Assembly: GCF_025490915.1 (NCBI RefSeq)
Contig: NZ_JANQBA010000011.1
Span: 1-64,000 of the forward strand
Length of the DNA stretch: 64,000 bases
Source of the DNA: Lacticaseibacillus parakribbianus
Lineage (GTDB): Bacteria; Bacillota; Bacilli; Lactobacillales; Lactobacillaceae
Direction of reading: 5' to 3'
Shown: positions 12,490 through 64,000 of the stretch, piece by piece
How the letters are laid out: the number at the start of each line of letters is the position of its first letter
Numbering within the stretch: position 1 is the first letter of the stretch
Program-made: the position numbers and the translations under genes
The notes under the pieces: model-generated
The model's input: only the letters and a program-made list of their open reading frames with translations
Databases searched by the model: none
What the model was told of the DNA's origin: nothing

Positions 12490-12914
12490 AAAAACCCCGG
12501 TCGAAGTTGCTTCGACCGGGGTTCTTGCGGTGTCGACCGCGCCGAAGCCACCGGGGACAAGGCCGCCGGTGGCCAGGCGTTCAGATTGGTGCGTTGCAAG
12601 CATTCGTGCGGTTGGCGGCCGGTAGTGTCTGGCCGGCAGTACAACTTGAAACAAGCCACCGGTCAATGCTCCGCCGCAGCTACCTCGCATTGCGAGTAGG
12701 CGGGACAAAACGCGGCCGGTGGGTGGTGGTCCACACCCTGGTGGTCGGTCCCAATCGGAGGGGACCGTTGCGCGAAAACGTCGGCGTTGTTGCCAGGTTC
12801 GGCATGGCATGAGTGGGGTACTGGGAATGCTTATGTCCCGGACCGTTCCCCATAGACGGTGGCGATGCAACGGCTGTGATCAAAGCCGCCGCCCCGTCCT
12901 AAGATAATCATCTG
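12490..12914 (-). ncRNA. Structured RNA of about 425 nt, copy A of a three-copy family
   Basis: Transcribed leftward from the conserved promoter at 12920-12948 to a perfect terminator hairpin (12495-12521, arms CCCCGGTCGAAG and complement, loop TTG) followed by five U. About 260 nt at the 5' side align with the RNA at 44.68-45.08 kb. Invariant blocks include GATGATTAT near the 5' end, GGGGAACGGTCCGGGACATA and AGCATTCCCAGTACCCC, which can fold as GGGG/CCCC and GGGA/TCCC helices, and GAGGTAGCTGCGGCGG. Helices are conserved with compensatory changes: CGGTCCC/GGGACCG here against CGG-GCCC/GGGCCCG in copy B; GGCT/AGCC against GGCC/GGCC; AACG/CGTT against ACAC/GTGT. No shared open reading frame runs through the unit in the sense direction. 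Not RNase P, tmRNA, SRP or any family I can name. Confidence 0.8.
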
Positions 12915-12919
12915 AAGCC

Positions 12920-12948
12920 AGTGTAAGCCTTGTTATGTTGGCCGTCAA
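12920..12948 (-). promoter_or_regulatory. Promoter of structured RNA copy A
   Basis: On the minus strand: TTGACG (12948-12943), 17-nt spacer ending AAGGCT, TACACT (12925-12920). Both boxes, the spacing and the spacer end are the same in copy B. Confidence 0.85.
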
Positions 12949-13011
12949 CTTTGAAGCTCGCAATGCGGCTTGGCGGTTGAAAAATTTGGCGTAGCGAGGC
13001 AACACGCCAAG

Positions 13012-42538: not shown

Positions 42539-42579
42539 CGGTCGGCGGCGACACGCGGCAGCGACAAAAAGCGGCAGAG

Positions 42580-42737
42580 GCGACACGCGACAGAGGCGGT
42601 GCGGCTTCCCGAATAGGCGGCGACACGCAATAAAGGCGGTGCGGCTTCCCGAGTAGGCGGCGACACGCGACAGAGGCGGTGCGGCTTCCCGAGTAGGCGG
42701 CGGCACACGACAGAGGCGGTGCGGCTTCCCGAATGGG
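42580..42737 (+). repeat. Four 40-bp repeats ahead of the coaA terminator
   Basis: Units start at 42580, 42620, 42660 and 42700, each 40 bp and containing AGGCGGTGCGGCTTCCCGA. The last unit supplies the 5' arm of the terminator at 42714-42754, so the first three look like tandem copies of that arm. Confidence 0.9.
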
Positions 42738-42754
42738 GAGGTCGCACCGCCTTT
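42714..42754 (+). terminator. coaA terminator
   Basis: AGGCGGTGCG-gc-TTCCC/GGGGA-ggt-CGCACCGCCT hairpin followed by TTT. Confidence 0.75.
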
Positions 42755-42875
42755 GGTGTCGGCCGCGTTGGCAACCAGTCGGCCGCGTTGGCTTTGGTGG
42801 CCCGGGGCGGCGCCGGTCGGGGTGGTGGTCTGTGCGGAGATACAATCGGTGGGGTGGTGGTCCTGGTGGCGTCGC

Positions 42876-44555
42876 TCACCAGACGGCGTTTTTGGCGTTT
42901 TGCCGCCACTGGGTGAACAGCCGGTGGCGGTAGGCGGCCTGCTTCAGCCTGGCGGGATCGATTGCCAGCTGGCGCATCATCGCGCCGCCGTCTGCAAAGT
43001 CATGGGCGGACACTCCAGCCAAAAGGTAGACGGGATGGCTCAGCGCCTCGCGCTTGGTGAGGTAGCGGTCCCAGACGGCTTGTCGCGCCGCCACCAGGTT
43101 GTCTGCGGGTGGCAGCAAGGCGGCGATTTGGGCCTGGTAGGCTGCAAACGTGAGGCGGCCGGCCTGCAGCTGGGTCGCCAGCTGGGCGACGGTCGCCGCA
43201 GCGATTGGCGGATGCTGACCGGTGGTCCGGCTGGCAGCCTGATGGCGCATGTCTACGGTCTGGGCGGATGTGTGAGCGCGTGGGGTGGCCGTCCGGTCGG
43301 TGGCGTGTTTGGGCTTGACGCCAAGGTTTTGATCGGTAACCGCGTTGCGCTTCTCACCGGCATCGTACTTACTGGCCCCAGCCTGACGCCGGGTCAGCTT
43401 GGCGATGGCGGCCACCGCCGCCGCCCGGGCCCGGCGCAGCGCCGCCACCTGGTTGGGCGCGATGGCCCGGGCCAGCCGCAGCCTGCCGGTCAGGCCGCCT
43501 TGCCAGCCCAGGCTGAGCTGCAGGCGAATCAAGGCGGCGTCGAAGGCCAGCACCACCGGCACGTGCGGCGTCAGGTGCAGGTCGCCGCTGAACGTCTCCT
43601 CATGCGCGTTGATTTTTTCCACGGCGGTGGCGGCTTCGACCGTTGCCAGCAGGCCGTCTTGCGCGTGGGTGTGGTCGTTATCGTCCAGCAACAGCGTGGT
43701 GGTGGCGCGTTGAACGGTCACCCGCAGTCGCTGGCGCTGCGGCCGCGGTCGGGTTTGCGCCAGGCTGGTGTGCAGGCTGATGCGGTAAGGCGTGAGCTGC
43801 GACGGCGCAACCGGCCGTGGATCCAGCGGCAGGGCGGTGGGCCAATTGGCGGCCGGAGTGATGGTCGCCAAAAGCGCGGCCTGGTACTGCGGGTCGCCCA
43901 GCCTGGCGGCGTCGACCTGGTACACCGGCCGGTTGTCCGGCGGCGTCGCCTGCAGCAGCCGCAGCTGGGTCGGCGCGGCGATCACCAGGTGCTCCGGCGC
44001 CACGGCGTCGAGCGCGGCGTAGACCTTGCGCATCAAGGCGATTTGGGCCTGCTGGAGGTGGGCGAGCTGTGACCGTGCCATTGGGGGCAGCACTTGGGCT
44101 TGCTCAAGCAGCTTGGTCTGGCATTCGGCGAACGATAACCGATTGTTTTGATAATCGGACAGCGTTGCCGTGAGGTTGCGACGACAAGTTACGTCCGAGA
44201 TTTGACCAAGCCAACGCGCGGTGTCGTCGACGACTTGGGCCTTTGTGCGGCGCCAGACATGCACCACCTTTTTGAAGGCGGCTGATCCCGGTAGTTCGCG
44301 CCATTGCGTCACAGTTCCGGTAACGCTCAAAGTGTCACCGGTTCGCCACAGCAGCCCGAGTTGGGCAAGCTCAGGTTTGAACGCCAGGTAAGCGGGGACT
44401 GACCCGAAAAAGTGGCTGGTTCCGTCGGCAAGCGTTAGTGCGGACAATGTGACCGCGAGCCACCGGCGCCGAATTGGAGACAGTGACGTTGTAAGTAAGG
44501 TCCCAGAGAAACTGCCGGTGATTGTGGTGGTGAGCTGAAGCGCGTGCAGCGGCAT
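42876..44555 (-). CDS. Large protein of unknown function
   Basis: 559 residues; AAGGTG before the ATG and promoter TTACAA-16-TATACT upstream. It is not secreted and has no membrane helix. The N-terminal part (about 1-90) looks like an OB-like beta domain (SLSPIRRRWLAVTLSALTLADGTSH, DTLSVTGTVTQWRELPG). The middle is Ala/Gln/Arg-rich with putative helical segments. The C-terminal region contains QAVWDRYLTKREALSHPVYLLAGVSAHDFADGGAMM. I do not recognise any family. A helicase-like or DNA-associated accessory role is conceivable from the OB-like N-terminus but unproven. Confidence 0.6.
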   Translation of the reverse strand: MPLHALQLTTTITGSFSGTLLTTSLSPIRRRWLAVTLSALTLADGTSHFFGSVPAYLAFKPELAQLGLLWRTGDTLSVTGTVTQWRELPGSAAFKKVVHVWRRTKAQVVDDTARWLGQISDVTCRRNLTATLSDYQNNRLSFAECQTKLLEQAQVLPPMARSQLAHLQQAQIALMRKVYAALDAVAPEHLVIAAPTQLRLLQATPPDNRPVYQVDAARLGDPQYQAALLATITPAANWPTALPLDPRPVAPSQLTPYRISLHTSLAQTRPRPQRQRLRVTVQRATTTLLLDDNDHTHAQDGLLATVEAATAVEKINAHEETFSGDLHLTPHVPVVLAFDAALIRLQLSLGWQGGLTGRLRLARAIAPNQVAALRRARAAAVAAIAKLTRRQAGASKYDAGEKRNAVTDQNLGVKPKHATDRTATPRAHTSAQTVDMRHQAASRTTGQHPPIAAATVAQLATQLQAGRLTFAAYQAQIAALLPPADNLVAARQAVWDRYLTKREALSHPVYLLAGVSAHDFADGGAMMRQLAIDPARLKQAAYRHRLFTQWRQNAKNAVW

Positions 44556-44644: not shown

Positions 44645-44673
44645 TTGACGGGTAAAAAGACAGGGCTTACACT
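44645..44673 (+). promoter_or_regulatory. Promoter of structured RNA copy B
   Basis: TTGACG (44645-44650), 17-nt spacer ending CAGGGCT, TACACT (44668-44673); identical boxes to copy A. Confidence 0.85.
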
Positions 44674-44679
44674 GAACTT

Positions 44680-45084
44680 GGATGATTATTCTAGGACAGG
44701 GAGGCGGCCAAAGGCCTTGGTCGTTGCGTGTCCACTGCCCATGGGGAACGGTCCGGGACATAAGCATTCCCAGTACCCCGCTCATACCAAGCCGAATCTG
44801 GCTTTCAACACACGTGTTTTCGCGTAACGGCGCCCACCTGCGGGCCCGAATACCAGGGTTGGACCTCCACCCACCGGCTGTTTAGTGTACTGCCCACTCG
44901 CTTGCGAGGTAGCTGCGGCGGTGCATTGACCGGTGGCTTGAACCACTCGCACGCAAGTCGCACCACGCCACTTGCGGCAACCAAGATTCTCGCAACCAAG
45001 CAACAAAAAAACACCGAGGCTGCCGCGGGTGTACCCCGCGGTGGCTTCGGCGCGTCCGGCGCCGGCGATTCTGCCGGCGCTTTT
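44680..45084 (+). ncRNA. Structured RNA of about 405 nt, copy B
   Basis: Starts after the promoter at 44645-44673 and ends at a perfect terminator (GCGCCGGC 45059-45066, loop GATTCT, complement 45073-45080, TTTT). It aligns with copy A from GATGATTATTCTAGGAC through GGACATAAGCATTCCCAGTA to GAGGTAGCTGCGGCGGTGCA and CCGGTGGCTTGA, then diverges for about 80 nt and converges again on GGTGGCTTCGGCGCG before the terminator. Helix-forming segments differ from copy A in paired positions. A second hairpin at about 45014-45050 may end minus-strand transcription of the gene at 45136. Role unknown. Confidence 0.8.
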
Positions 45085-45291: not shown

Positions 45292-45575
45292 GTTGGACCT
45301 CCTGACTGGCGGGCAAGGGCGCCCACGTGACTTGTTGCCCCTAGTATAAGCCCGGACTGACGGTCGTGGCGCCTCCCAGGCCGCGGCTTGAGCAAAGCTT
45401 AACAAGTTGCGCCGCCGCGGCCGCCGCCATTCACGACTCGGTGACGGGAGGCCCAAGCGCTGCGGTCACCACGCCGCCGGCCGGGCGGCCAAGCAGCGCA
45501 AGCAACCCTGCAACCGGGCACGGTTCGCCAATTCTGGACTTTTTCACCCACGACCGGCCGCCTTGCCACCGCCCC

Positions 45576-45719
45576 GGTTCGCGAATCCCGGCATATCCCG
45601 ACGGCCACGCTCCGGTTCGCGAATCCCGGCAAATCCCGGCGGCTCCGGTTCGCGAATCCCGGCAAATCCCGGCGGCTCCGGTTCGCGAATCCCGGCATAT
45701 CCCAGCGGCCACGCCCTGG
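45576..45719. repeat. Interspersed repeats upstream of guaA
   Basis: GGTTCGCGAATCCCGGCA recurs at 45576, 45614, 45647 and 45680 with spacings of 38, 33 and 33 bp and a partial fifth near 45719. Units alternate between CAAATCCCGGCGG and CATATCCC linkers. No coding capacity is convincing; the remainder of 45292-45797 has no gene. Confidence 0.85.
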
Positions 45720-45797
45720 TTTGCCGGCCAGCTCCGGACAATGGCGCGAACTGCCGCGGCGATGGTCGCGATTTCCCTCATCTAAGCCCGGCAACGG

Positions 45798-45859: not shown

Positions 45860-47410
45860 GTGGCTAAGACGACCCAGGACTATGACCAGATCATCGTTCT
45901 CGATTACGGCAGTCAGTACAACCAATTGATCACGCGGCGCATTCGCGAGTTCGGCATCTACTCCGAGCTCAAGCCGCACAGTATTTCCGCTCAAGAAGTG
46001 CGTGATATCGCGCCGAAGGGGATTATTTTCTCCGGCGGACCGAACTCCGTGTACGATGAAGGGGCGCTCGACGTCGACCCCGAGATTTTCGAGCTGGGCA
46101 TTCCGATTCTGGGCGTGTGCTACGGCATGCAGCTGATGGCGCAGCGCCTCGGCGGCCGCGTTGAATCCGCCAAAAACCGCGAGTACGGCAAGGTCGACAT
46201 CAAGGTGACCGACGATTCCGCCAAGCTCTTCCAAGACCTGCCGGCCGAGCAAACCGTGTGGATGAGCCACGGCGACCTGGTTCGCGCGGTGCCGGAGGGC
46301 TTCCGCGTCACCGCCACCTCCGACAACTGCCCGATTTCCGCCATGGACGACGATGTCCGCAAGTTCTACGGCATCCAGTTCCACGCCGAGGTGCAGCACA
46401 CCCGCTACGGCCACGAAATCCTGCACCATTTTGCCTTCGACATCTGCCACGCGACCGCCAACTGGAACATGGGCGACTTCATCGAGCAGCAGGTGACCGC
46501 GATTCGCCAGGAAGTCGGGGACAAAAAGGTCCTGCTAGGCCTCTCCGGCGGCGTGGACTCATCCGTCGTTGCCGTACTTTTGAACAAGGCCATCGGCTCC
46601 CAGCTCACCGCCGTCTTCGTCGACCACGGTCTGCTGCGCAAGAACGAGGCCGACCAGGTGATGGCCGCCTTGTCCCGCGACCTCGGCGTCAACATCATCA
46701 AGGTCGACGCCGCCGACCGCTTCCTCGGCGACCTGAAGGGTGTGACCGACCCCGAGCAAAAACGCAAGATCATCGGCCGCGACTTCATCGAAGTTTTCAA
46801 TGAAGAGGCCCGCAAGCTCGACGGCATCGAGTACCTCGCCCAGGGCACGCTGTACACCGACGTGGTCGAGTCCGGCACCGACACCGCTCAGACCATCAAG
46901 TCCCACCACAACGTCGGCGGCCTGCCCAAGGACCTGAAATTCAAGCTGATCGAGCCTTTGAACAAGCTGTTCAAGGACGAGGCGCGTGAGCTCGGCGAAC
47001 GCCTGGGCATCCCGCACGAACTCGTGTGGCGCCAGCCGTTCCCGGGCCCGGGCCTCGGCATCCGCGTCCTCGGTGAGGTCACGGAAGACAAGCTCGAGAT
47101 CGTCCGCGAATCCGACTGGGTCCTGCGCGACGAGATCAAAAAGGCGGGCCTGGACGAAAGCATCTGGCAGTACTTCACCGTGCTCCCAGGCTTCCGCAGC
47201 GTCGGCGTGATGGGCGACGGCCGCACCTACGACTACACCATCGCAATCCGCGCCATCACCAGCATCGACGGCATGACCGCCGACTTCGCCCGCATCGACT
47301 GGGAAGTGCTCCAAAAGATCTCCGCCCGCATCGTCAACGAGGTCGGGCACATCAACCGCGTGGTTTACGACATCACGAGCAAGCCGCCGGCAACGGTTGA
47401 ATGGGAATAA
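45860..47410 (+). CDS. guaA: GMP synthase (glutamine-hydrolysing)
   Basis: 516 residues from a GTG at 45860 with AAGGAG upstream. The glutaminase domain has [11 protein letters not shown] (nucleophile Cys) and the catalytic His/Glu in FHAEVQHT; the ATP-pyrophosphatase domain has [15 protein letters not shown]; the C-terminal dimerisation domain has [16 protein letters not shown]. It aminates XMP to GMP. The 3' end of guaA is a known integration hotspot for mobile elements in Firmicutes; the low-GC island begins just downstream, supporting that use here. Confidence 0.98.
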
Positions 47411-47477
47411 AAGGTACATGTAAATTGAACCCGGAATGTTGATTTAACGGCATTTTCGGAAGATACAAAGGATACGA

Positions 47478-47555
47478 TTGGCGGGGAAATTGTTACGTTC
47501 CCCGCCAAAATCCCCGCCAAGTTTGGGCCGAATGAGGGCTGAGTTGGCGGGGATT
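47478..47555. repeat. Four GGCGGGGA boxes in two inverted pairs after guaA
   Basis: GGCGGGGA at 47480 and 47546, complement TCCCCGCC at 47499 and 47511. The outer pair forms AATCCCCGCCAA/TTGGCGGGGATT (12 bp perfect) and the left pair TTGGCGGGGAA/TTCCCCGCCAA (11 bp). They lie at the guaA/island border and could be terminators, integrase arm sites or both. Confidence 0.8.
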
Positions 47556-47617
47556 CTTTATTTCTCTTAGAGTCTAATTCGGTGGTACGGTGATGTTGAA
47601 ATCCAATGAAAAGTACG

Positions 47618-47707: not shown

Positions 47708-48427
47708 ATGCCGATTTTTCTTTCGGGAGCGTGGGGGATTATTAGTAGTATTTGTGTGAATCTGATAGTAGCTGGATTGACCACGGTCTGGTTTAACAGA
47801 CGTCGGTTACAGATATGGCTTCAATCCACAGTAAGATACAATAAACTCATTCGAGTAAGCGCAGCCTACTTGTTTCGGATTCAAGTTGATGGAGAGTACA
47901 TCTTGATGCCAGGTAAACACATTGAACAATATCAACCGGTTGGTGGAGTGTATAAGACGTTCTCAAGTTTTGACGAAAAGAAGAGTGAGTGGCAAATTCA
48001 GGCGGAACCGGGCCAAAGATTCTATGAGCAAAGTGACCTTCGAATTAAAATTAAAGGGAAATATCTTGGTAAATTTTTGTCTTGGTTTGAAAGTGAGAAA
48101 AATCGGGAAGTTACAGTCCAACGAGAAATTATCGAAGAACTTATTGAAACTGGCATTTTAGACTATGCCGACTTGGCACAGATGGAAATTGAATTTTTGC
48201 GACGAACGAAACTGCCAATTTCACATTCTGTATACTTTGACGCTGATGAGCTTCATATTTTTGATATATATGAACTGAATCTGACGGCAGTTATCAAGCA
48301 AAAAATTTTACAAGCAGTTGGAGCTGGAAGCCTTATGAAAATTACTGAGGATCAGATAAGAAAGCAGAATCTTGTAATCAATGGAAAATCTTTCAGTATT
48401 GGTGCCCATACTGAATATATTTTGTGA
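47708..48427 (+). CDS. CBASS effector: transmembrane-NUDIX protein (SMODS-associated NUDIX)
   Basis: 239 residues, AGAGGGG 8 nt before the ATG. One membrane helix at about 8-27 (GIISSICVNLIVAGLTTVWF) precedes a degenerate NUDIX domain: MPGKHIEQYQPVGGVYK and the Nudix-box-like REVTVQREIIEELIETG (about 137-153). This is the TM-NUDIX architecture known as an effector next to CD-NTases (Sa_NUDIX; called Cap16 in some nomenclature). In such systems the effector is activated by a cyclic oligonucleotide made during phage infection and is thought to kill the cell by membrane disruption. The neighbouring CD-NTase starts 10 bp later. Confidence 0.85.
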   Translation: MPIFLSGAWGIISSICVNLIVAGLTTVWFNRRRLQIWLQSTVRYNKLIRVSAAYLFRIQVDGEYILMPGKHIEQYQPVGGVYKTFSSFDEKKSEWQIQAEPGQRFYEQSDLRIKIKGKYLGKFLSWFESEKNREVTVQREIIEELIETGILDYADLAQMEIEFLRRTKLPISHSVYFDADELHIFDIYELNLTAVIKQKILQAVGAGSLMKITEDQIRKQNLVINGKSFSIGAHTEYIL

Positions 48428-48436
48428 GGAGATCAA

Positions 48437-49951
48437 ATGCCTAATTCGTTAACTTTTTCAAAGGAGTTGCAGAGAACTCTTGCTGATATTGAAATCCCAG
48501 AAGATGCATATAAACGGGCTGAACAGAGTTACCGATCATTATCTGAATGGTTGGTGAGGGACAACTCTAGAATCAAGCGGTACAACCTTGATATCTTCCT
48601 CCAAGGTTCAATCAAACTTGGAACGGCGGTGAGGCCAGTTACTGAGGATGGAAGCTATGATGTGGACGTCGTATGTGTACTGCAAGAGGAGTCGATAAAT
48701 AAGATTTCGCAAGCGGACCTGAAACATAAACTTGGTATCGAAATAAAGGACTATGTTGCTTCAAAGCGAATCAAGGAGAAAGCTAAAGACGGGAAACGAT
48801 GCTGGACACTTTTGTATCAAGATAGCTACAATTTCCACATTGATGTACTTGTCGCGGTTCCCTCCAGAAAGAGATATCCAGAAATTGTTGATTCTTATCA
48901 ACTGAGGAAAATTGTTAGTGATGCGGATAGTTCAGGTATTAACATCACAGATAAGCGGCATCCTCATTATTATCAAATTGCAAATGATTGGAACCTTAGT
49001 AATCCAAAAGGATATTATCAGTGGTTCCAAAATGTATCAAAGTTTTATGAAATGAGAAAGTCGATGGCGTTTGAAAACCAGGAGTCAATTGAAAAGATTC
49101 CAGCGTATCGAGTAAAGACACCATTGCAACGTTTCGTACAACTGTTAAAACGACATGCTGAAGTAATGTTTGATGGAAGAATGGAGTACTGTCCGACATC
49201 AATTATTATTACAACTCTTGCCGCCCACGCTTATTTGGACTTAGAAAAAGTTGAGCATCACAATCTGGACAGTTTACTTCGAGAAATCATCAAGATAATG
49301 CCGAAGTACATCATTCATGATTCTTCTGAGAAAATTGAGATACTAAATCCTGTCAATCCAAATGAAAACTTTGCAGATAAATGGTCAGAAGAACCTCGTT
49401 ATTTTTCAGCGTTTCAAGATTGGCATAAGCAGCTTCTTAAAGACTTCGGAATAGGCTCTCAATCTCAAAATGATGATTTGAATCACATTGAAGTTCGCAA
49501 ATCGATGGGACTTGATTTTAAAGTGCAATCTTCGGCGCAACGTGAGCAATTTCTGAATTATCTGCCATATCATCAAGCACTTAGATGGCCTATTATTGGT
49601 GAAAGAAAAATTCAAATATCCGTCGAAGACTACACGAATAAATTTATGCCCGTTCCAATTGGCGACGCGCAGAGAGTCTTAGTTAATAGATCGATTCGAT
49701 TTCGTGTTAATGATGTTATTAGTTCTAGTCAGAATATCTACTGGCAAGTTACGAATACTGGTGCTGAGGCGAAATATGCGGGTGATTTGAGAGGTGAATT
49801 TCAGGCGGCCAGTCGAGACGGCGGTTCATACTTTCGAATGGAAAGCACGCGATACGTGGGACAACATTACGTTCAGGCATTTTTAATTGAAAATGGTAAA
49901 TGCGTTGGTAAGTCAGCACCGTTTCAAGTCAATATTGTACGAAGTATTTGA
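48437..49951 (+). CDS. CBASS cyclic-oligonucleotide synthase (CD-NTase, SMODS) with AGS-C domain
   Basis: 504 residues, AGGAG before the ATG. The nucleotidyltransferase core shows LQGSIKLGTAVRP (GS motif), YDVDVVCVL with two metal-binding Asp, and the third Asp in FHIDVLVAV. A helical OAS1-C-like region follows (VKTPLQRFVQLLKRHAEVMF). The last ~100 residues (RVLVNRSIRFRVNDVISSSQ, IYWQVTNTGAEA, LRGEFQ, RYVGQHYVQAF, CVGKSAPFQVNI) match the AGS-C sensor domain fused to some CD-NTases. No Cap2/Cap3 or HORMA genes are present, so this is a minimal type I CBASS. Product nucleotide cannot be predicted. Confidence 0.92.
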   Translation: MPNSLTFSKELQRTLADIEIPEDAYKRAEQSYRSLSEWLVRDNSRIKRYNLDIFLQGSIKLGTAVRPVTEDGSYDVDVVCVLQEESINKISQADLKHKLGIEIKDYVASKRIKEKAKDGKRCWTLLYQDSYNFHIDVLVAVPSRKRYPEIVDSYQLRKIVSDADSSGINITDKRHPHYYQIANDWNLSNPKGYYQWFQNVSKFYEMRKSMAFENQESIEKIPAYRVKTPLQRFVQLLKRHAEVMFDGRMEYCPTSIIITTLAAHAYLDLEKVEHHNLDSLLREIIKIMPKYIIHDSSEKIEILNPVNPNENFADKWSEEPRYFSAFQDWHKQLLKDFGIGSQSQNDDLNHIEVRKSMGLDFKVQSSAQREQFLNYLPYHQALRWPIIGERKIQISVEDYTNKFMPVPIGDAQRVLVNRSIRFRVNDVISSSQNIYWQVTNTGAEAKYAGDLRGEFQAASRDGGSYFRMESTRYVGQHYVQAFLIENGKCVGKSAPFQVNIVRSI

Positions 49952-50052
49952 AACTCATGTTGAGTAGAGGTATCAATAGCGAGTTAAAATTGTCAGTTGG
50001 ATAATATTAGAGCCGGAGAGTTAATTACAAAAATGAAAGCGAGAATCTCTCA

Positions 50053-51678
50053 ATGATGACGTCACAAGAACAGCAACAAGTAACTCAAGATTTGCAGAAC
50101 CGTATTTGGCAAGCAGCCAATGCTTTGCGTAATTCTGGCATGGAAGCCAACGACTATCGTGATTACACGTTAGGGCTTATTTTCTATAAGTACGAGTCTG
50201 ACCGCTTCTTGCGCCAAATCTCTGAAGGGTTAGGCGTTGACTTTACCAATTTAGACGATGCGCAGGCTACGTATGAGGCCGCTTTGCAAGATGACGATGC
50301 CAAGGAAGTCGTTGATTACGTTAAGGATGCAATCGGCTTTATGATTGATCCTGACAAGACGTTTCATCATTTGGTTAAGGACGTGCACGCCGCGACTTTT
50401 CAAACCGCTGACTTGGCGCAAGCCTTGAAGAACCTTGAAGACTCTGATCCTGTATTTGCGGGCTTGTTTGATGATCTTGACCTCAATGCCACCAAGCTTG
50501 GTAGCACCGAACAAGAGCGTAACAGCGTCATCGGTGATGTGATGAGTGCGTTAGACCAAATCAACTTCGCCGCTGATACCGGCCTTGATGTGATGGGTAA
50601 CGCATACGAGTACCTGATCTCCCAGTTTCAAACGGAATCTGCTAAAAAGGCAGGGGAATTTTACACGCCTCAAGCCGTTAGTCGCTTGATGATGCAGATC
50701 GGCATGAAAGGGCGCGAAGACGTTCAAGGGGTTTCCGTGTATGATCCGGCCATGGGGTCAGGGTCACTGCTGTTGAATGCAAAGCGCTACAACTCGCATC
50801 CTGACTCGATTCAATATTTCGGTCAAGAAGTGAAGACCGCGCCTTATAACTTGGCGCGCATGAACATGATGCTTCACGATGTGCCAGTATCTAACCAGCA
50901 TTTGAACCTTGGCAACACGTTGGGTACAGATTGGCCGAGTGATGAACCAACCAACTTTGATATTGTAACTATGAACCCTCCGTACAGCCTGTCATGGAAG
51001 CCAACTAAGGCAATGTCAACTGATCCGCGTTTCCAAGCGTATGACGTAGCGCCTAAGAGCGCCGCCGACTATGCGTTCTTGACGCATGGCTTGTATCACT
51101 TGAAGGCTGACGGGACGATGGCTATTGTTTTGGCTACCGGCGTCTTGTTCCGTGGTGGCGCTGAAGGGCGCATCCGTGAAGCACTGTTGAAGAAGGGCAA
51201 TATTTCGGCAGTGATCGGCATGCCGTCAAATATCTTCCACAACACGGGTATCCCGACGGTTGTTATCGTGCTGAAGAAGCAACGCGACGACAATGACGTG
51301 CTGTTCATCGACGCGTCCAAGCAATTCCGCAAGGCTAAGAACCAAAATGTGATGGGTCCAGAGCATACGGATCTAATCTTGAAGACGCTCGTGGATCGTG
51401 AAGACGTGACCTATAACGAGGACGGGACCGAGTTTAGCCACCTGGTGAAGTTTGAAGATCTGGAAGCCAATGACTTCAATATGAACATCCCAATGTACGT
51501 TGATACGTACCTGCCAGAGGCACCGGTTGACGTCAATGCGCTTGTCTCAGACGTTAATGACGTGCAAGGGCAGATTGTAGACCAGAACAAGCAGCTGCAC
51601 GACTTGTTCGGGCAGTTTGTTGGTGAAGACGCTGCTAAGCAAGCTGAGGTAGATAAGATTCGGGGGTTGTTTGAATGA
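50053..51678 (+). CDS. hsdM: Type I restriction-modification methyltransferase subunit HsdM
   Basis: 541 residues. The N-terminal HsdM_N domain (LQNRIWQAANALRNSG) precedes the N6-adenine methyltransferase: AGEFYTPQAVSRLMMQI, motif I DPAMGSGSLLLNA, motif IV NPPY in VTMNPPYSLSW, and FRGGAEGRIREALLKKGNISAVIGMPSNIFHNTGIPT. It methylates adenine in the target set by HsdS and forms the M2S core of the restriction complex. Stop and hsdS start overlap (ATGA). AT-richer than the surrounding chromosome. Confidence 0.97.
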   Translation: MMTSQEQQQVTQDLQNRIWQAANALRNSGMEANDYRDYTLGLIFYKYESDRFLRQISEGLGVDFTNLDDAQATYEAALQDDDAKEVVDYVKDAIGFMIDPDKTFHHLVKDVHAATFQTADLAQALKNLEDSDPVFAGLFDDLDLNATKLGSTEQERNSVIGDVMSALDQINFAADTGLDVMGNAYEYLISQFQTESAKKAGEFYTPQAVSRLMMQIGMKGREDVQGVSVYDPAMGSGSLLLNAKRYNSHPDSIQYFGQEVKTAPYNLARMNMMLHDVPVSNQHLNLGNTLGTDWPSDEPTNFDIVTMNPPYSLSWKPTKAMSTDPRFQAYDVAPKSAADYAFLTHGLYHLKADGTMAIVLATGVLFRGGAEGRIREALLKKGNISAVIGMPSNIFHNTGIPTVVIVLKKQRDDNDVLFIDASKQFRKAKNQNVMGPEHTDLILKTLVDREDVTYNEDGTEFSHLVKFEDLEANDFNMNIPMYVDTYLPEAPVDVNALVSDVNDVQGQIVDQNKQLHDLFGQFVGEDAAKQAEVDKIRGLFE

Positions 51679-52886
51679 GCTTGAATAATGAAAGCCCGAA
51701 GATGACGCCTGCGGTTCGAGCTGCTGGATTTACCGGTGATTGGGAACAGCGTAAGCTCAGTGGGCTATTTGAAACGCAATCACGGCCGATAAATATGGAA
51801 GCCAATTCGGAATATGAGCTAGTTACCGTTAAGCGTAGAAATGGCGGTGTTGTATCTCGAGGTAAGTTTAAGGGTAATGAAGTCCTTGTCAAATCACAGT
51901 TTGAATTACGATCTGGAGATTTTCTTATTTCGAAACGACAAGTGGTTCATGGCGCAACTGGGATAGTCCCTCGTTCTCTTGATGGTGCTATTGTTTCCAA
52001 CGAGTATCTCGTCCTTCGCGGAAACAGTATGCTGAATACTGATTTTTTTCGGATACTTAGTGAGCGTCCTCAAATGTATTTATTATATTTCTTGAGTTCA
52101 TATGGTATCGATATCGAGAAGTTGGTGTTTAACGTTCGGATGTGGATGAATAAAGAAATTTTGATTCCGTCACTTAACGAACAGTTAAAAAACTGCACTT
52201 TAATTCAGAAGCTAGATGATACTGTTATTTCTCATCAGCATAAACTTTCAGGTTTGCAGCAAGCACGCAGCTGGGCAGAACAGAATTTGTTTCCGACATC
52301 GAATAAAATTACCCCGAAAGTTCGTGTTGATGAATTCGACGGTGCATGGACGAGTACCAATATTGGTGATATTTGTAAAGAGATCAAAGATCGTTCAGCA
52401 AATGGTGAGCTCCTATCTGTAACTCGGCACAATGGTGTGGTACGTTTCTCTGAGACTGGTCGTAAGGATAATTCCAGCAATGACAAGTCTAACTATAAGT
52501 GGGTTTCTAAAGGTGATTTAGTTTATAACTCAATGCGGATGTGGCAAGGTGCCAGTGGCTTGTCGAAGTATGATGGTATCGTAAGTCCAGCTTATACGGT
52601 AGTTAAGTTAGAGCCGACTGTTGACGGGAACTTTATCAGTCTCTTATTTAAGAATGATCCGCTGGTGTTTATCTTTCGGCGTCATTCAAAGGGGCTCACC
52701 TCTGACACTTGGAATCTGAAGTATCCAGAATTGTCAAAAATTCGCATCAGCTATCCGTCATTGGCTGAGCAGCAGGCTATTGCCAAGGTCTTCACTACAA
52801 TCGATGCTCGTATCAAGTCAGAACAACAACTCATCGCAGATCTCCAAGAGGTTAAGCGTTGGGCGCTGGATAACATGTTCGTATAA
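51675..52886 (+). CDS. hsdS: Type I specificity subunit HsdS
   Basis: 403 residues, start overlaps the hsdM stop by 4 bp. Two target-recognition domains are visible: 10-165 beginning FTGDWEQRKLSGLFE, and 220-365 beginning DGAWTSTNIGDICKE. Conserved helical spacers follow each: NEQLKNCTLIQKLDDTVISHQHKLSGLQQARSW and AEQQAIAKVFTTIDARIKSEQQL. It sets the bipartite DNA site of the complex. Only one hsdS is in view and no inverted partner for phase-variable shuffling is seen. Confidence 0.95.
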   Translation: MSLNNESPKMTPAVRAAGFTGDWEQRKLSGLFETQSRPINMEANSEYELVTVKRRNGGVVSRGKFKGNEVLVKSQFELRSGDFLISKRQVVHGATGIVPRSLDGAIVSNEYLVLRGNSMLNTDFFRILSERPQMYLLYFLSSYGIDIEKLVFNVRMWMNKEILIPSLNEQLKNCTLIQKLDDTVISHQHKLSGLQQARSWAEQNLFPTSNKITPKVRVDEFDGAWTSTNIGDICKEIKDRSANGELLSVTRHNGVVRFSETGRKDNSSNDKSNYKWVSKGDLVYNSMRMWQGASGLSKYDGIVSPAYTVVKLEPTVDGNFISLLFKNDPLVFIFRRHSKGLTSDTWNLKYPELSKIRISYPSLAEQQAIAKVFTTIDARIKSEQQLIADLQEVKRWALDNMFV

Positions 52887-52897
52887 TAGGAGAGAAG

Positions 52898-53267
52898 ATG
52901 ATTGCCGTGGGAAACCCATTGCAGAATTTGCCAAAGTCCATGTCAGGACGAATCTTAAAAGTCATTACCATCGAAAAGACGGGCGCTGATGCGTATCGGC
53001 TGTCTTATCTTGATGATGATCTCAAGACTCAACGGGCCAATGTTCCGTCTCCTTTGAAGCCGTGGGCACGTCATATTTATCAGATGAGCACTGGTTATTG
53101 GACGCGTTGAATTTGGCGTTCGGCCTACTGATGGGTTTACCTATGCTGAGCAGCTCTTGACCGACCAGGAATTGCAACTGGCAACAGAGAATTGGAATCA
53201 GTTGCCGGAACGCCAACGACTTGATCTTCTTGTTCAGTTGTGGTCGAAAGAATCCGAATCACACTAA
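52898..53267 (+). pseudogene. Decayed small gene between hsdS and hsdR (two frameshifts)
   Basis: AGGAGAG before ATG 52898 starts a frame MIAVGNPLQNLPKSMSGRIL, AYRLSYLDDDLKTQRANVPSP. Near 53053 the frame continues only if one T is restored in a T run, giving FEAVGTSYLSDEHWLLDALNLAFG; near 53115 another shift restores VRPTDGFTYAEQLL, TDQELQLATENWNQLPERQR to a stop at 53267. An intact version would have about 120 residues. I do not recognise the family; it may be an accessory of type I loci in lactobacilli. Confidence 0.7.
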
Positions 53268-53285
53268 TTAAAAGTGAGGCACTGT

Positions 53286-56200
53286 ATGTCTGTCTATTTC
53301 AAAGATGAGGTTGGCGCTGAAGCCATTCTTGAAGAAAATCTAATCGACCAACTGGTCAAGGACACTAAGTCCAATATCGGTCAGTGGGTTTATCGTGGCG
53401 ACATTACCACCGATAATGAACTGTGGGACAATTTACGCCAGAAGCTCGATGCCACTAACAAGGATGTTTTACTCGGCAAAAAGCTTACTGATAATGAGTT
53501 TGCCCAGGTGAAGACGTTCCTATCGTTCAACTCAGCCTATGATGCGGCTACATGGCTTCAAGGCGAAAACGGCGTGGCCCATATTCCTTACCAACCATCA
53601 GATGCCAGTCGCAAGCGGCAATCCTTGGTGGCTTTTGTGGCGCGTGATATTGCCGGTGGAACGTCTTGCTACGAGATCATCAACCAGTATATTTCCAATA
53701 AGTCGAAGGCGGTTGGTGAGGATGCCAATGACCGGCGGTTTGATGTCACGCTGCTGATCAACGGCATTCCGATGATTCACATTGAGTTGAAGACACAAAA
53801 TCATCCCTACATGGATGCTTACCGTCAGCTCGAGAAGTACACGCGTGAAGGCCATTTCCATGGGTTGTTTAGTTGCGTGCAGATGTTTGTTGTCTCAAAC
53901 GGTAGCAACACACGGTATTTCGCACCAGCTGCTGCGACAGACTTTGACGGACGTTTCTTGATTCGCTGGTCTGATGATAAGAACCGGCCAGTGGAGAATC
54001 TTCAGACGTTTGCAGAGGATGTTTTGACGATTCCAATGGGTCATAAGATGGTAGCTCATTTCACCGTCATTGACTACGCCCACAAACGCTTGATGCTGAT
54101 GCGCCCTTATCAGATCCATGCCCTAGAGGCTGTCTTTGAGGCGGCGAAGCACCGTAAGTCTGGGTTTGTGTGGCATACAACTGGTTCTGGCAAGACCATT
54201 ACAGCCTACAAGGTCGCCCAGCGCTTATTGTGGATTCCATCGGTCAATCACACGGTTTATATCGTTGATCGCGTTGACTTGGATGACCAAGCGACGGATG
54301 CGTTCCAGTCTTACGCCAAATTTGAGAACTTCTCAGTGGAAGGTACGGACAACTCTGGCCAATTGATCGATGCCCTGCATGAGCAGAAGCAAACGGCCAT
54401 TATCACCACGGCGCAAAAGCTTGGCAAGTTGATCGATTACTATAAGAAACGATACGGGGATCAAGATCCTAAGCACTTGCATGGCTTGCGCCTTGAGATG
54501 ATTGTCGATGAGTGTCATCGGTCAATTTCCGCGGAACAGATGGCCTACATTAAGGAATTCTTCCCGCAAAGTGACTGGTACGGGTTTACCGGGACGCCGA
54601 TCTTCGATGAAAACAAGAAGAACGTAAAGGGACAATTGCCTGATACCACCGAAAAGCAGTTCGGTGAAGTCCTATCGACGTATAACATCCAAGATGCGTT
54701 GAGGGATGGCAGCGTGTTGGACTTCCAGCCAGACTATCAGCGGCCATTTGAAGACTATGATCTGGATGCGGCGGTCGCGGCAGCCAGTGGGAAAACGCAA
54801 GCTGAACTGACTGATATGGACCCGATGAAAAAGGAATCCTTGTTGCCATCTGAATATTTTGACGACGAAAAGCATTTGGATAGCGTCATCGATTATATTC
54901 TGAACAAGTCTAGCCAAAAGCTTGGTTTCCAGCGTGGGTCCGGCAATACGTTTGAAGGGATTCTGACCACCGGGACGATTCCTCGGGCAATCGCGTATTA
55001 TAAACGGTTCAAGGAAGCCTTGCAGAACCCTGATGCCATGAAGAAGCGCATTAAGCTGATGGCACCGGATGGATTTCCAAAGATTGCGCTGACATACTCC
55101 GCAGCGGATAACAATAAGACCGGTGATGTTGAACGGGCCGAAGACTTGTATGCCGCAATTGATGACTACAACGAGATGTTTGGGACCACTTTCCAGCACG
55201 ACCAAAAAGGCATTGCATCATACAATTCCGATTTGTCAAAACGCCTGTCTCGTAAGGAATCTAAGTATACGTCGCGCTCTGAACAATTGGACTTGGTCAT
55301 TGTTGCGCGGCGATTACTAACGGGATTTGATGCACCAATTCTGTCAACGTTATACGTTGATCGGCCAGTGATGAGCGCAGCAGAGTTGATCCAGTCGTTC
55401 TCGCGGACAAACCGAACGTTTGATGATCGCGACAAGCCGCACGGCCAAATTGTGACGTTCCAATCACCAGTAACGTATCGACACGCGGTAAACGCCGCTA
55501 TTACGTTGTATGCCCATGGTGGTGAATCAGTGGCTTTGGCACCAGAATGGAAGCCCGCGCGCATTAAGCTACATGATGCGGTAGCTAAACTCAAACAAGT
55601 GGCGCCTGAGTGGAACACCGTGACCGAAGAATCTACAGTCACTGAGCAAACGGACTTTGTGAAGGCATTCCAATCGTTTGCCAAGGCTTACCAGGATGCC
55701 AAATTCTATGCGGAGTTCGATGCTGACCAGGTCAAAGAACAGTTCGGCATTGATGACAATTTCTTTGACGAGTATAACGGCAATTATCAAAATGTGTTGG
55801 AGCACTTGAAGTCGCGTGTGACCGATGATGGCGACTCCGATGATGTCCGCAAACTGGTAGAGTTGGACTTTGAGCTGTCGCTATATCGTTCTGATATTAT
55901 CGACTACAATTACATCATGCGATTGATCGCTGCGTATTCTGATGAAGTGGACGACTTAACCGATGCTCAGCAAGACAAGCGTGCCGCTGAAATTGCTGAC
56001 GCAATCGACAAGATGTCCAAGGATAATCCAAAGATTGCAGCCATCATTAATGATTTGTGGGGTGCAGTTGACGCCGGTGATTTGCATTCAGCGGATTTGA
56101 TGAATCGCTTTAATGAGGAAGTCGGTGACAAGCTTCATGAAGCGCTTGATGGTTTCTCTGATAAGTGGCAAATTGATAGTGATAAGTTGGCCTATACGGC

Positions 56201-56396
56201 GCGTCACTTCGATCCTAAAGCCGATAAGGTACAAGAGCAGCCGGGCTACCCGGAATTAAAGGGTTCATTTTCGATTGATCAATACTTGGAACATGGTGGC
56301 AAGAAGGAACATTTCCCGTTCAAGTATGCGAAAAACTTTAACCAAGATCTAGCGTCAACGTTGCGTGAAGACGTGGCACCTTTAATTTACTTTTAA
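53286..56396 (+). CDS. hsdR: Type I restriction endonuclease subunit HsdR
   Basis: 1036 residues from ATG 53286; earlier codons precede the GTGAGGC site. The N-terminal nuclease has RRFDVTLLINGIPMIHIELK (D and E-x-K). The SF2 translocase has Walker A VWHTTGSGKTITAYK, II IVDECHRS, III GFTGTPI, and VI SFSRTNRTFDD near residue 710. The HsdR-C helical end follows. It restricts unmethylated DNA after ATP-driven translocation. Complete, so with hsdM and hsdS the system appears functional. A terminator follows. Confidence 0.96.
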   Translation: MSVYFKDEVGAEAILEENLIDQLVKDTKSNIGQWVYRGDITTDNELWDNLRQKLDATNKDVLLGKKLTDNEFAQVKTFLSFNSAYDAATWLQGENGVAHIPYQPSDASRKRQSLVAFVARDIAGGTSCYEIINQYISNKSKAVGEDANDRRFDVTLLINGIPMIHIELKTQNHPYMDAYRQLEKYTREGHFHGLFSCVQMFVVSNGSNTRYFAPAAATDFDGRFLIRWSDDKNRPVENLQTFAEDVLTIPMGHKMVAHFTVIDYAHKRLMLMRPYQIHALEAVFEAAKHRKSGFVWHTTGSGKTITAYKVAQRLLWIPSVNHTVYIVDRVDLDDQATDAFQSYAKFENFSVEGTDNSGQLIDALHEQKQTAIITTAQKLGKLIDYYKKRYGDQDPKHLHGLRLEMIVDECHRSISAEQMAYIKEFFPQSDWYGFTGTPIFDENKKNVKGQLPDTTEKQFGEVLSTYNIQDALRDGSVLDFQPDYQRPFEDYDLDAAVAAASGKTQAELTDMDPMKKESLLPSEYFDDEKHLDSVIDYILNKSSQKLGFQRGSGNTFEGILTTGTIPRAIAYYKRFKEALQNPDAMKKRIKLMAPDGFPKIALTYSAADNNKTGDVERAEDLYAAIDDYNEMFGTTFQHDQKGIASYNSDLSKRLSRKESKYTSRSEQLDLVIVARRLLTGFDAPILSTLYVDRPVMSAAELIQSFSRTNRTFDDRDKPHGQIVTFQSPVTYRHAVNAAITLYAHGGESVALAPEWKPARIKLHDAVAKLKQVAPEWNTVTEESTVTEQTDFVKAFQSFAKAYQDAKFYAEFDADQVKEQFGIDDNFFDEYNGNYQNVLEHLKSRVTDDGDSDDVRKLVELDFELSLYRSDIIDYNYIMRLIAAYSDEVDDLTDAQQDKRAAEIADAIDKMSKDNPKIAAIINDLWGAVDAGDLHSADLMNRFNEEVGDKLHEALDGFSDKWQIDSDKLAYTARHFDPKADKVQEQPGYPELKGSFSIDQYLEHGGKKEHFPFKYAKNFNQDLASTLREDVAPLIYF

Positions 56397-63945: not shown

Positions 63946-63974
63946 TTGACGGCCACCGTGGCAGGGCTTACATT
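63946..63974 (+). promoter_or_regulatory. Promoter of structured RNA copy C
   Basis: TTGACG (63946-63951), 17-nt spacer ending CAGGGCT as in copy B, TACATT (63969-63974), merging with TATAAT. The same layout as copies A and B. Confidence 0.75.
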
Positions 63975-63979
63975 ATAAT

Positions 63980-64000
63980 CAGATGATTGTCAACGGGCAG
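63980..64000 (+). ncRNA. 5' end of structured RNA copy C, cut by the window
   Basis: After the promoter the sequence reads CAGATGATTGTCAACGGG, matching the conserved GATGATTAT-AGGACGGG 5' end of copies A and B. Only about 20 nt are visible. Confidence 0.6.

Follow-up and report, generated by a model that had tools for sequence, protein, structure and literature searches.

A multicopy family of structured RNA genes and a divergently encoded protein family in Lacticaseibacillus: a candidate two-component ribonucleoprotein

Introduction

Several described bacterial systems resemble in part what we observe in a stretch of 64,000 nucleotides (nt) from Lacticaseibacillus parakribbianus (contig NZ_JANQBA010000011.1 of assembly GCF_025490915.1, positions 1 to 64,000, hereafter the window; C3:1-64000 of its own genome, G000, which comprises 2.82 Mb in 32 contigs), where members of a multicopy family of RNA genes are found, one of them beside the gene of a putative partner protein. 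REP/RAYT systems and MITEs comprise many nonautonomous, hairpin-bearing repeats and few protein genes, and OLE RNA has protein partners. Group IIC introns are described as structured RNA genes dispersed directly behind Rho-independent terminators (PMC8919778), and OLE, ROOL and GOLLD as large, highly structured bacterial RNAs (PMC12286853). A 520-nt long noncoding RNA (lncRNA) of L. salivarius lies on a megaplasmid, is restricted to the species and has no known function, and the abstract of its description mentions no protein partner (PMC5643018).

The RNA family in the window shares with group IIC introns a 5' end directly behind a terminator, which is true for part of the copies (20/46, against 13% at random), and is unlike them in that it has no domain V or group II match in Rfam, carries its own promoter inside the repeated unit, and occurs in genomes in which no reverse transcriptase was found (no match and no first-look candidate for PF00078, RVT_1, in the copy-rich genomes G000, L. 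kribbianus YH-lac21 [G006] and G012). The same negative result in these three genomes separates it from the ribonucleoprotein of diversity-generating retroelements (reverse transcriptase, Avd and RNA), and the alignment of the putative partner protein with Avd lies within the chance range for bundles and is not among the 50 matches listed for the better model. Like OLE, ROOL and GOLLD, as far as the cited source describes them, the RNA is large and structured; unlike them, it has no Rfam match, occurs in dozens of copies per genome and is paired with a protein gene at some loci. Set side by side by description and not by sequence, it resembles the L. salivarius lncRNA of the cited abstract in being a species-restricted lactobacillus RNA. 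With REP/RAYT systems and MITEs it has in common many repeats against few protein genes, whereas the RNA genes here are longer, have their own promoter and keep a fold of 200 nt by compensatory evolution; Pfam gives no transposase match for the protein paired with them, no search aimed at Y1 (HUH) transposases having been made. The best reading of these data, to which we assign a probability of roughly 0.57, is a two-component ribonucleoprotein whose RNA genes have spread as DNA cassettes behind terminators.

Results

Copy number and anatomy of the RNA genes

A sequence-only reading of the window had proposed a multicopy structured RNA, transcribed from near-identical promoters at three places. 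The coordinates, TTGACG-17-TACACT promoters and intrinsic terminators that it gave for copies A and B hold (Table 1), and its third place is the promoter at 63946-63974 (+), the RNA of which starts near 63981 and leaves the window, running to about C3:64376. The family itself is supported by promoter tallies, covariance-model matches, covarying helices and the usual terminator, while its copy number, the divergent protein gene at 42876-44555 and the related loci in other species were absent from that reading, which stopped short of a partner protein family, of the arm's hypervariability in type I and of dispersal behind genes and terminators.

The core covariance model (R1; 205 positions and 31 pairs, built from 32 copies) has at least 57 matches in G000 and at least 14 in L. 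kribbianus YH-lac21 at E <= 1e-3, with no match at this threshold in 28 other genomes of the genus, for each of which 81 first-look candidates were scored. A limited number of first-look candidates was scored (81/1,073 for G000 with R1, and 6 per genome or 40 in other searches), so that the copy numbers given are minimum values and an absence is only as good as the scoring; DNA searches of G000, with 40 candidates scored, also gave dozens of copies. Fifty-three of the 57 matches in G000 are strong (E <= 2.1e-31). The four weak ones (L142-L145) represent a longer, type III form, whose members agree to 95 to 99% across about 680 nt, promoter included, and the clusters of open reading frames (ORFs) beside them lie partly inside this longer form. 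Downstream of one type III copy (L143) is an opposite-strand gene resembling a uracil phosphoribosyltransferase, named by eye without a search.

A strong copy is an RNA gene of roughly 400 nt that opens with the promoter and a 5' hairpin. The core, in which some unpaired blocks are invariant, comes next, followed by the arm, the 3' hairpin with its tail and the terminator. The RNA starts with GATGATT in most copies, the 3' hairpin is usually followed by CUUCGGCGCG, and the terminator, often present, varies in sequence between copies. We tallied these parts in 65 of the 67 strong copies of G000 and L. kribbianus, leaving out two that are cut at the start (L134 and L130). The promoter was recognized in 63 of the 65, with a spacing of 17 in 63/63 although 14 to 20 was permitted, and a GATGAT-like start was found in 58. 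A loose pattern for the 3' hairpin and tail matched 62 copies, about five of these matches probably being loop sequence, and 44 of the 62 read exactly CTTCGGCGCG. A T-run stands behind the RNA in 51/65 copies, and promoter, tail and T-run occur together in 50/65.

Table 1. Features of the RNA copies and of the paired protein gene in the window
Feature	Position	Strand	Basis
RNA copy A (type I)	12490..12914	-	search of genome, alignment, covariance model
Copy A promoter (-35 TTGACG, 17 nt, -10 TACACT)	12920..12948	-	sequence
Hairpin and T-run resembling a terminator, immediately upstream of copy A promoter	12980..13009	-	terminator scan
Copy A conserved folded core (model R1)	12656..12859	-	covariance match, E 5.3e-59
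Copy A hypervariable arm	12597..12651	-	arm comparison
Copy A conserved 3' hairpin with CUUCGGCGCG tail	12538..12577	-	sequence, alignment
Copy A intrinsic terminator	12490..12526	-	sequence
Putative partner protein, 559 amino acids, two predicted OB + four-helix units, transcribed away from copy B	42876..44555	-	ORF, homologue alignment; predicted folds of relatives
RNA copy B (type I), adjoins protein gene	44680..45084	+	search of genome, covariance model
Copy B promoter (TTGACG, 17 nt, TACACT)	44645..44673	+	sequence
Copy B conserved folded core (model R1)	44735..44936	+	covariance match, E 5.2e-57
Copy B hypervariable arm	44942..44996	+	arm comparison
Copy B conserved 3' hairpin with CUUCGGCGCG tail	45013..45054	+	sequence, alignment
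Copy B intrinsic terminator	45057..45084	+	sequence
Third copy, promoter (63946-63974) and first bases, continues past window end	63946..64000	+	genome search, covariance model

Covariation of the core and variability of the arm

Both-sided changes are seen at 16 of the 31 core pairs across the 32 copies, and the compensatory changes named in the sequence-only reading are present in the alignments. The covariation score of the core is 0.406, compared with 0.132 in shuffles (0/500 as high) and at most 0.128 with slid partners, and 96.4% of cells are able to pair, compared with 81.1% after shuffling and at most 56.2% after sliding, a control that is biased in the structure's favor because the structure was derived from the same alignment. 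Predicted folding z-scores are -4.2 for copy A and -4.5 for copy B. The arm follows a different pattern: among the 990 pairs formed by 45 copies, 88 have cores more than 90% identical, and in 45 of these 88 the arms are less than 60% identical, shuffled arms giving a level of 49%. By eye, the arm resembles a hairpin. In type II copies it is short and similar, hypervariability being a feature of type I.

No Rfam family matches the RNA copies in a scan of the whole window at gathering score, in keeping with the sequence-only reading, which could not match the RNA to a named family such as RNase P, tmRNA, SRP RNA or 6S. The best hit of a relaxed scan (E up to 5) of copies A and B is CrfA, at 26.5 of 38 bits and on the opposite strand of copy B, and 12 loci (two of type I/II in G000, the rest of other types or species) gave no match at gathering score; known RNAs, T-boxes and group II introns included, are rejected on these scans. 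A coding repeat was rejected as well, since the copies show the covariation of an RNA and are set apart by insertions and deletions. An origin from a plasmid, phage or virus was discarded in view of the absence of plasmid and phage matches for the 559-amino-acid protein, of viral-contig matches for the protein alignment (A4) and of plasmid matches for copy B. An exact 20-mer was not found in GTDB contigs, among which the window's own genome may be left out, and the literature searched (titles and the starts of abstracts, most subscription journals lying outside the coverage) contains no description of the RNA or the protein.

The partner protein and its pairing with the RNA

The protein family was seen in Lacticaseibacillus only (13/397 family genomes searched) and has no significant match in Pfam, NCBIfam, PHROGs, PADLOC, PDB sequences, plasmids or phages; at E 0.01, a PADLOC scan of the window protein alone returned no family. 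No toxin nuclease match of the kind expected for a type III toxin-antitoxin system was obtained for the protein in PADLOC, Pfam or NCBIfam. Relatives are predicted to fold as an OB-type barrel with an inserted four-helix bundle (predicted local distance difference test score, 84), and the single fused gene of the window often corresponds to two adjacent genes in other species. No catalytic residue is conspicuously conserved in the protein, in agreement with a role in binding more than in catalysis; the L127 protein, whose frame is disrupted close to its end, and the two ORFs of L156 entered the alignment unaltered. Elsewhere in G000, a divergent fused protein (C1:90607-92205) and a split pair (C12:198963-200407) each have, by eye, a different RNA beside them, and the RNA of the former locus resembles, also by eye, the four type III copies. 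The protein/RNA pair of the window is flanked on both sides by tandem repeats, at 42541-42766 and 45571-45724 (40 nt and 33 to 38 nt).

In G000 and L. kribbianus, a protein gene lies divergent to the RNA at 7 of the 71 copies examined. With respect to other species, we read 27 loci of protein homologues and observed upstream of most of them a separately promoted RNA-like stretch, divergent to the protein gene. A script that looks for hairpins with 8 or more pairs and a UU..GYG tail behind them was applied to 25 testable loci (23 from other species and 2 from G000) and found both in 19, of which 16 are at the expected place and three misplaced (L191, L201 and L213), compared with 8/25 on the opposite strand and 4.05 after shuffling. 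A further six loci fit only by eye (L191, L208, L209, L213, L217 and L218), and three show no clear RNA.

The RNAs beside the proteins of other species give short and weak BLAST matches to the window family at most. The two such types that we tested are multicopy in five other species, with 9 matches in G017, 9 in G013 and 10, some partial, in G024, as well as 33 in G012 and 39 in G007, both counts including split pieces. Their consensus folds show both-sided changes at 27/91 and 33/100 predicted pairs, counts given here without a shuffle control (alignments of 23 of 28 rows for one type and 18 full-length rows for the other). Protein and RNA identities are correlated in G000 and L. kribbianus (7 loci, r = 0.76, permutation P = 0.0008, the first ORF of L156 alone being used) and not significantly so in G017 and G013 (6 loci, r = 0.27, P = 0.17), where the RNAs cluster by species.

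Placement of the cassettes and differences between species

Among 57 RNA-only copies of G000 and L. kribbianus (7 protein-adjacent copies, 4 weak ones and 3 at contig ends were left out; flanking genes were called with a home-made codon score), the upstream gene is codirectional in 53. As an earlier terminator shuffle control was mononucleotide based and too lenient, we compared the 46 RNA-only copies of G000 with 966 random placements in 161 RNA-free gaps, the gene calls again coming from the codon score. The upstream gene is codirectional in 43/46 (46% at random), a terminator lies within 150 nt in 32/46 (37% expected), and a terminator T-run lies within 32 nt of the -35 element in 20/46 (13% at random).

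At the gene that we read by eye as tuf (flanking-gene names such as tuf and ftsW were assigned in this way), G000 and L. kribbianus share the terminator, and the cassette of G000 begins just behind its T-run while L. kribbianus has a different repeat. The site of L094 is RNA-free with both flanks kept in L. kribbianus, G001 and G008, and that of L097 in L. kribbianus and G001. The sites of L159 and L093 differ without being clean empty sites. In L. kribbianus, the site of L096 is RNA-free yet occupied by another repeat, and a different ORF stands where copy A would be; 5 of its 14 copies share a site with a copy in G000. One intergenic site with flanks about 91% identical carries RNA cassettes in opposite orientations in the two species (L150 in L. 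kribbianus and L112 in G000). A second repeat family, made up of tandem palindromic units, each about 124 nt long, and matching many loci, was noticed near L140 (about 4,304 to 3,555 bases upstream of the RNA core); by eye, a similar sequence stands at the L. kribbianus tuf site, where it seems to occupy the place of the missing RNA cassette.

Other features of the window

The sole Rfam match in the window is rli38, a Listeria small RNA, at full length (47396-47559, +; 62.8 bits, gathering score 49), at the end of guaA and behind it; the guaA stretch is 95% identical between G000 and L. kribbianus. A defense island follows at 47708-56396, with matches to models of a NUDIX-type 2TM effector and an oligonucleotide cyclase (CBASS-like) and then type I methyltransferase, specificity and restriction subunits.

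Discussion

The RNA family with its covariation, the pairing with a protein gene at some loci, the placement of the copies and their presence or absence between species can be read from the sequences themselves. From gene order, the shared 3' end, covariation and the joint change of protein and RNA, we infer transcription of the RNA, its binding by the protein and, for the RNA-only copies, use of the protein in trans. The two-component ribonucleoprotein would consist of a strongly promoted RNA of about 400 nt, with its folded core, hypervariable arm (in type I) and conserved-tail 3' hairpin, and of a divergently encoded protein of two OB/four-helix units, which would bind its cognate RNA, with the 3' hairpin and the core as probable contact sites, and would be used in trans by the RNA-only copies, the majority. 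Cassettes of about 0.5 kb would insert as DNA behind genes, often directly behind intrinsic terminators and in sense orientation, positions in which they may do little harm. Since no reverse transcriptase was found and the promoter lies inside the repeated unit, copying through a transcript is unlikely, and spread probably took place as DNA.

Much of the placement evidence would also be left by purely selfish cassettes, nonautonomous elements moved by a transposase in trans, whose RNA and protein serve their own spread alone: copy numbers are species specific, RNA-free sites exist, at one site the two species carry the cassette in opposite orientations, the position behind genes and terminators is polar, and many RNA-only copies stand against few protein genes. 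We nevertheless hold this to be unlikely, as divergent copies mostly keep promoter and 3' end and maintain the fold by compensatory changes, which is not expected of dead passengers, and the protein has no conspicuously conserved catalytic residue. Dispersal behind terminators likewise recalls a retroelement akin to group IIC introns or diversity-generating retroelements, with a reverse transcriptase rewriting the RNA there, a proposal that is contradicted for the present genomes because three copy-rich ones have no RVT_1 match; together with the lack of a group II intron match in Rfam, an Avd alignment within the chance range for bundles and a copied unit that includes the promoter, which a transcript copy would lose, this makes it very improbable.

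The divergence of arms between copies with nearly identical cores, close to the shuffled level, would be expected if the family were a trans-acting small RNA or guide repertoire, the arm selecting targets and the protein serving as chaperone. This is less plausible than selfish spread, given that the longest match of an arm averages 13.75 nt, against 13.2 when shuffled (583 kb searched, about a fifth of the genome), with arm L029 as the lone exception (a 20-nt match against a shuffle maximum of 18), and that the arms, by eye, look like hairpins rather than free guides, those of type II being short and similar. A promoter, a folded RNA and a terminator do stand ahead of a codirectional gene at 38/71 copies, as cis-acting leaders of the next gene (riboswitch or T-box like) would; at the other 33/71 the next gene is convergent towards the RNA, a gene order that contradicts such a role, and Rfam has no riboswitch or T-box match, which leaves cis-acting leaders the least credible of these explanations.

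We rate the finding as new because the libraries searched contain no described relative of either the RNA or the protein, and none of the systems tested accounts for the combination. Fast change and the hypervariable arm may hint at a role in conflict. It is possible, and we put it forward tentatively, that this is a new, genus-restricted class of ribonucleoprotein in which a fast-evolving protein (an OB barrel with an inserted helix bundle, acting as two units) is combined with a large RNA, amplified into a diversified repertoire of more than 50 genes per genome that lie behind genes and terminators and carry a hypervariable arm, as might be expected if the system took part in conflicts with phages, rivals or other elements. 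RNA-protein machines new to bacteriology seldom come to light, and a 2.8-Mb genome with dozens of paralogous genes for a large RNA, a hypervariable arm and a paired protein family would, if true, be striking in its content. How a noncoding gene spreads to terminators without a reverse transcriptase, and what role a large RNA repertoire has, would become accessible questions in lactobacilli that are easily tested.
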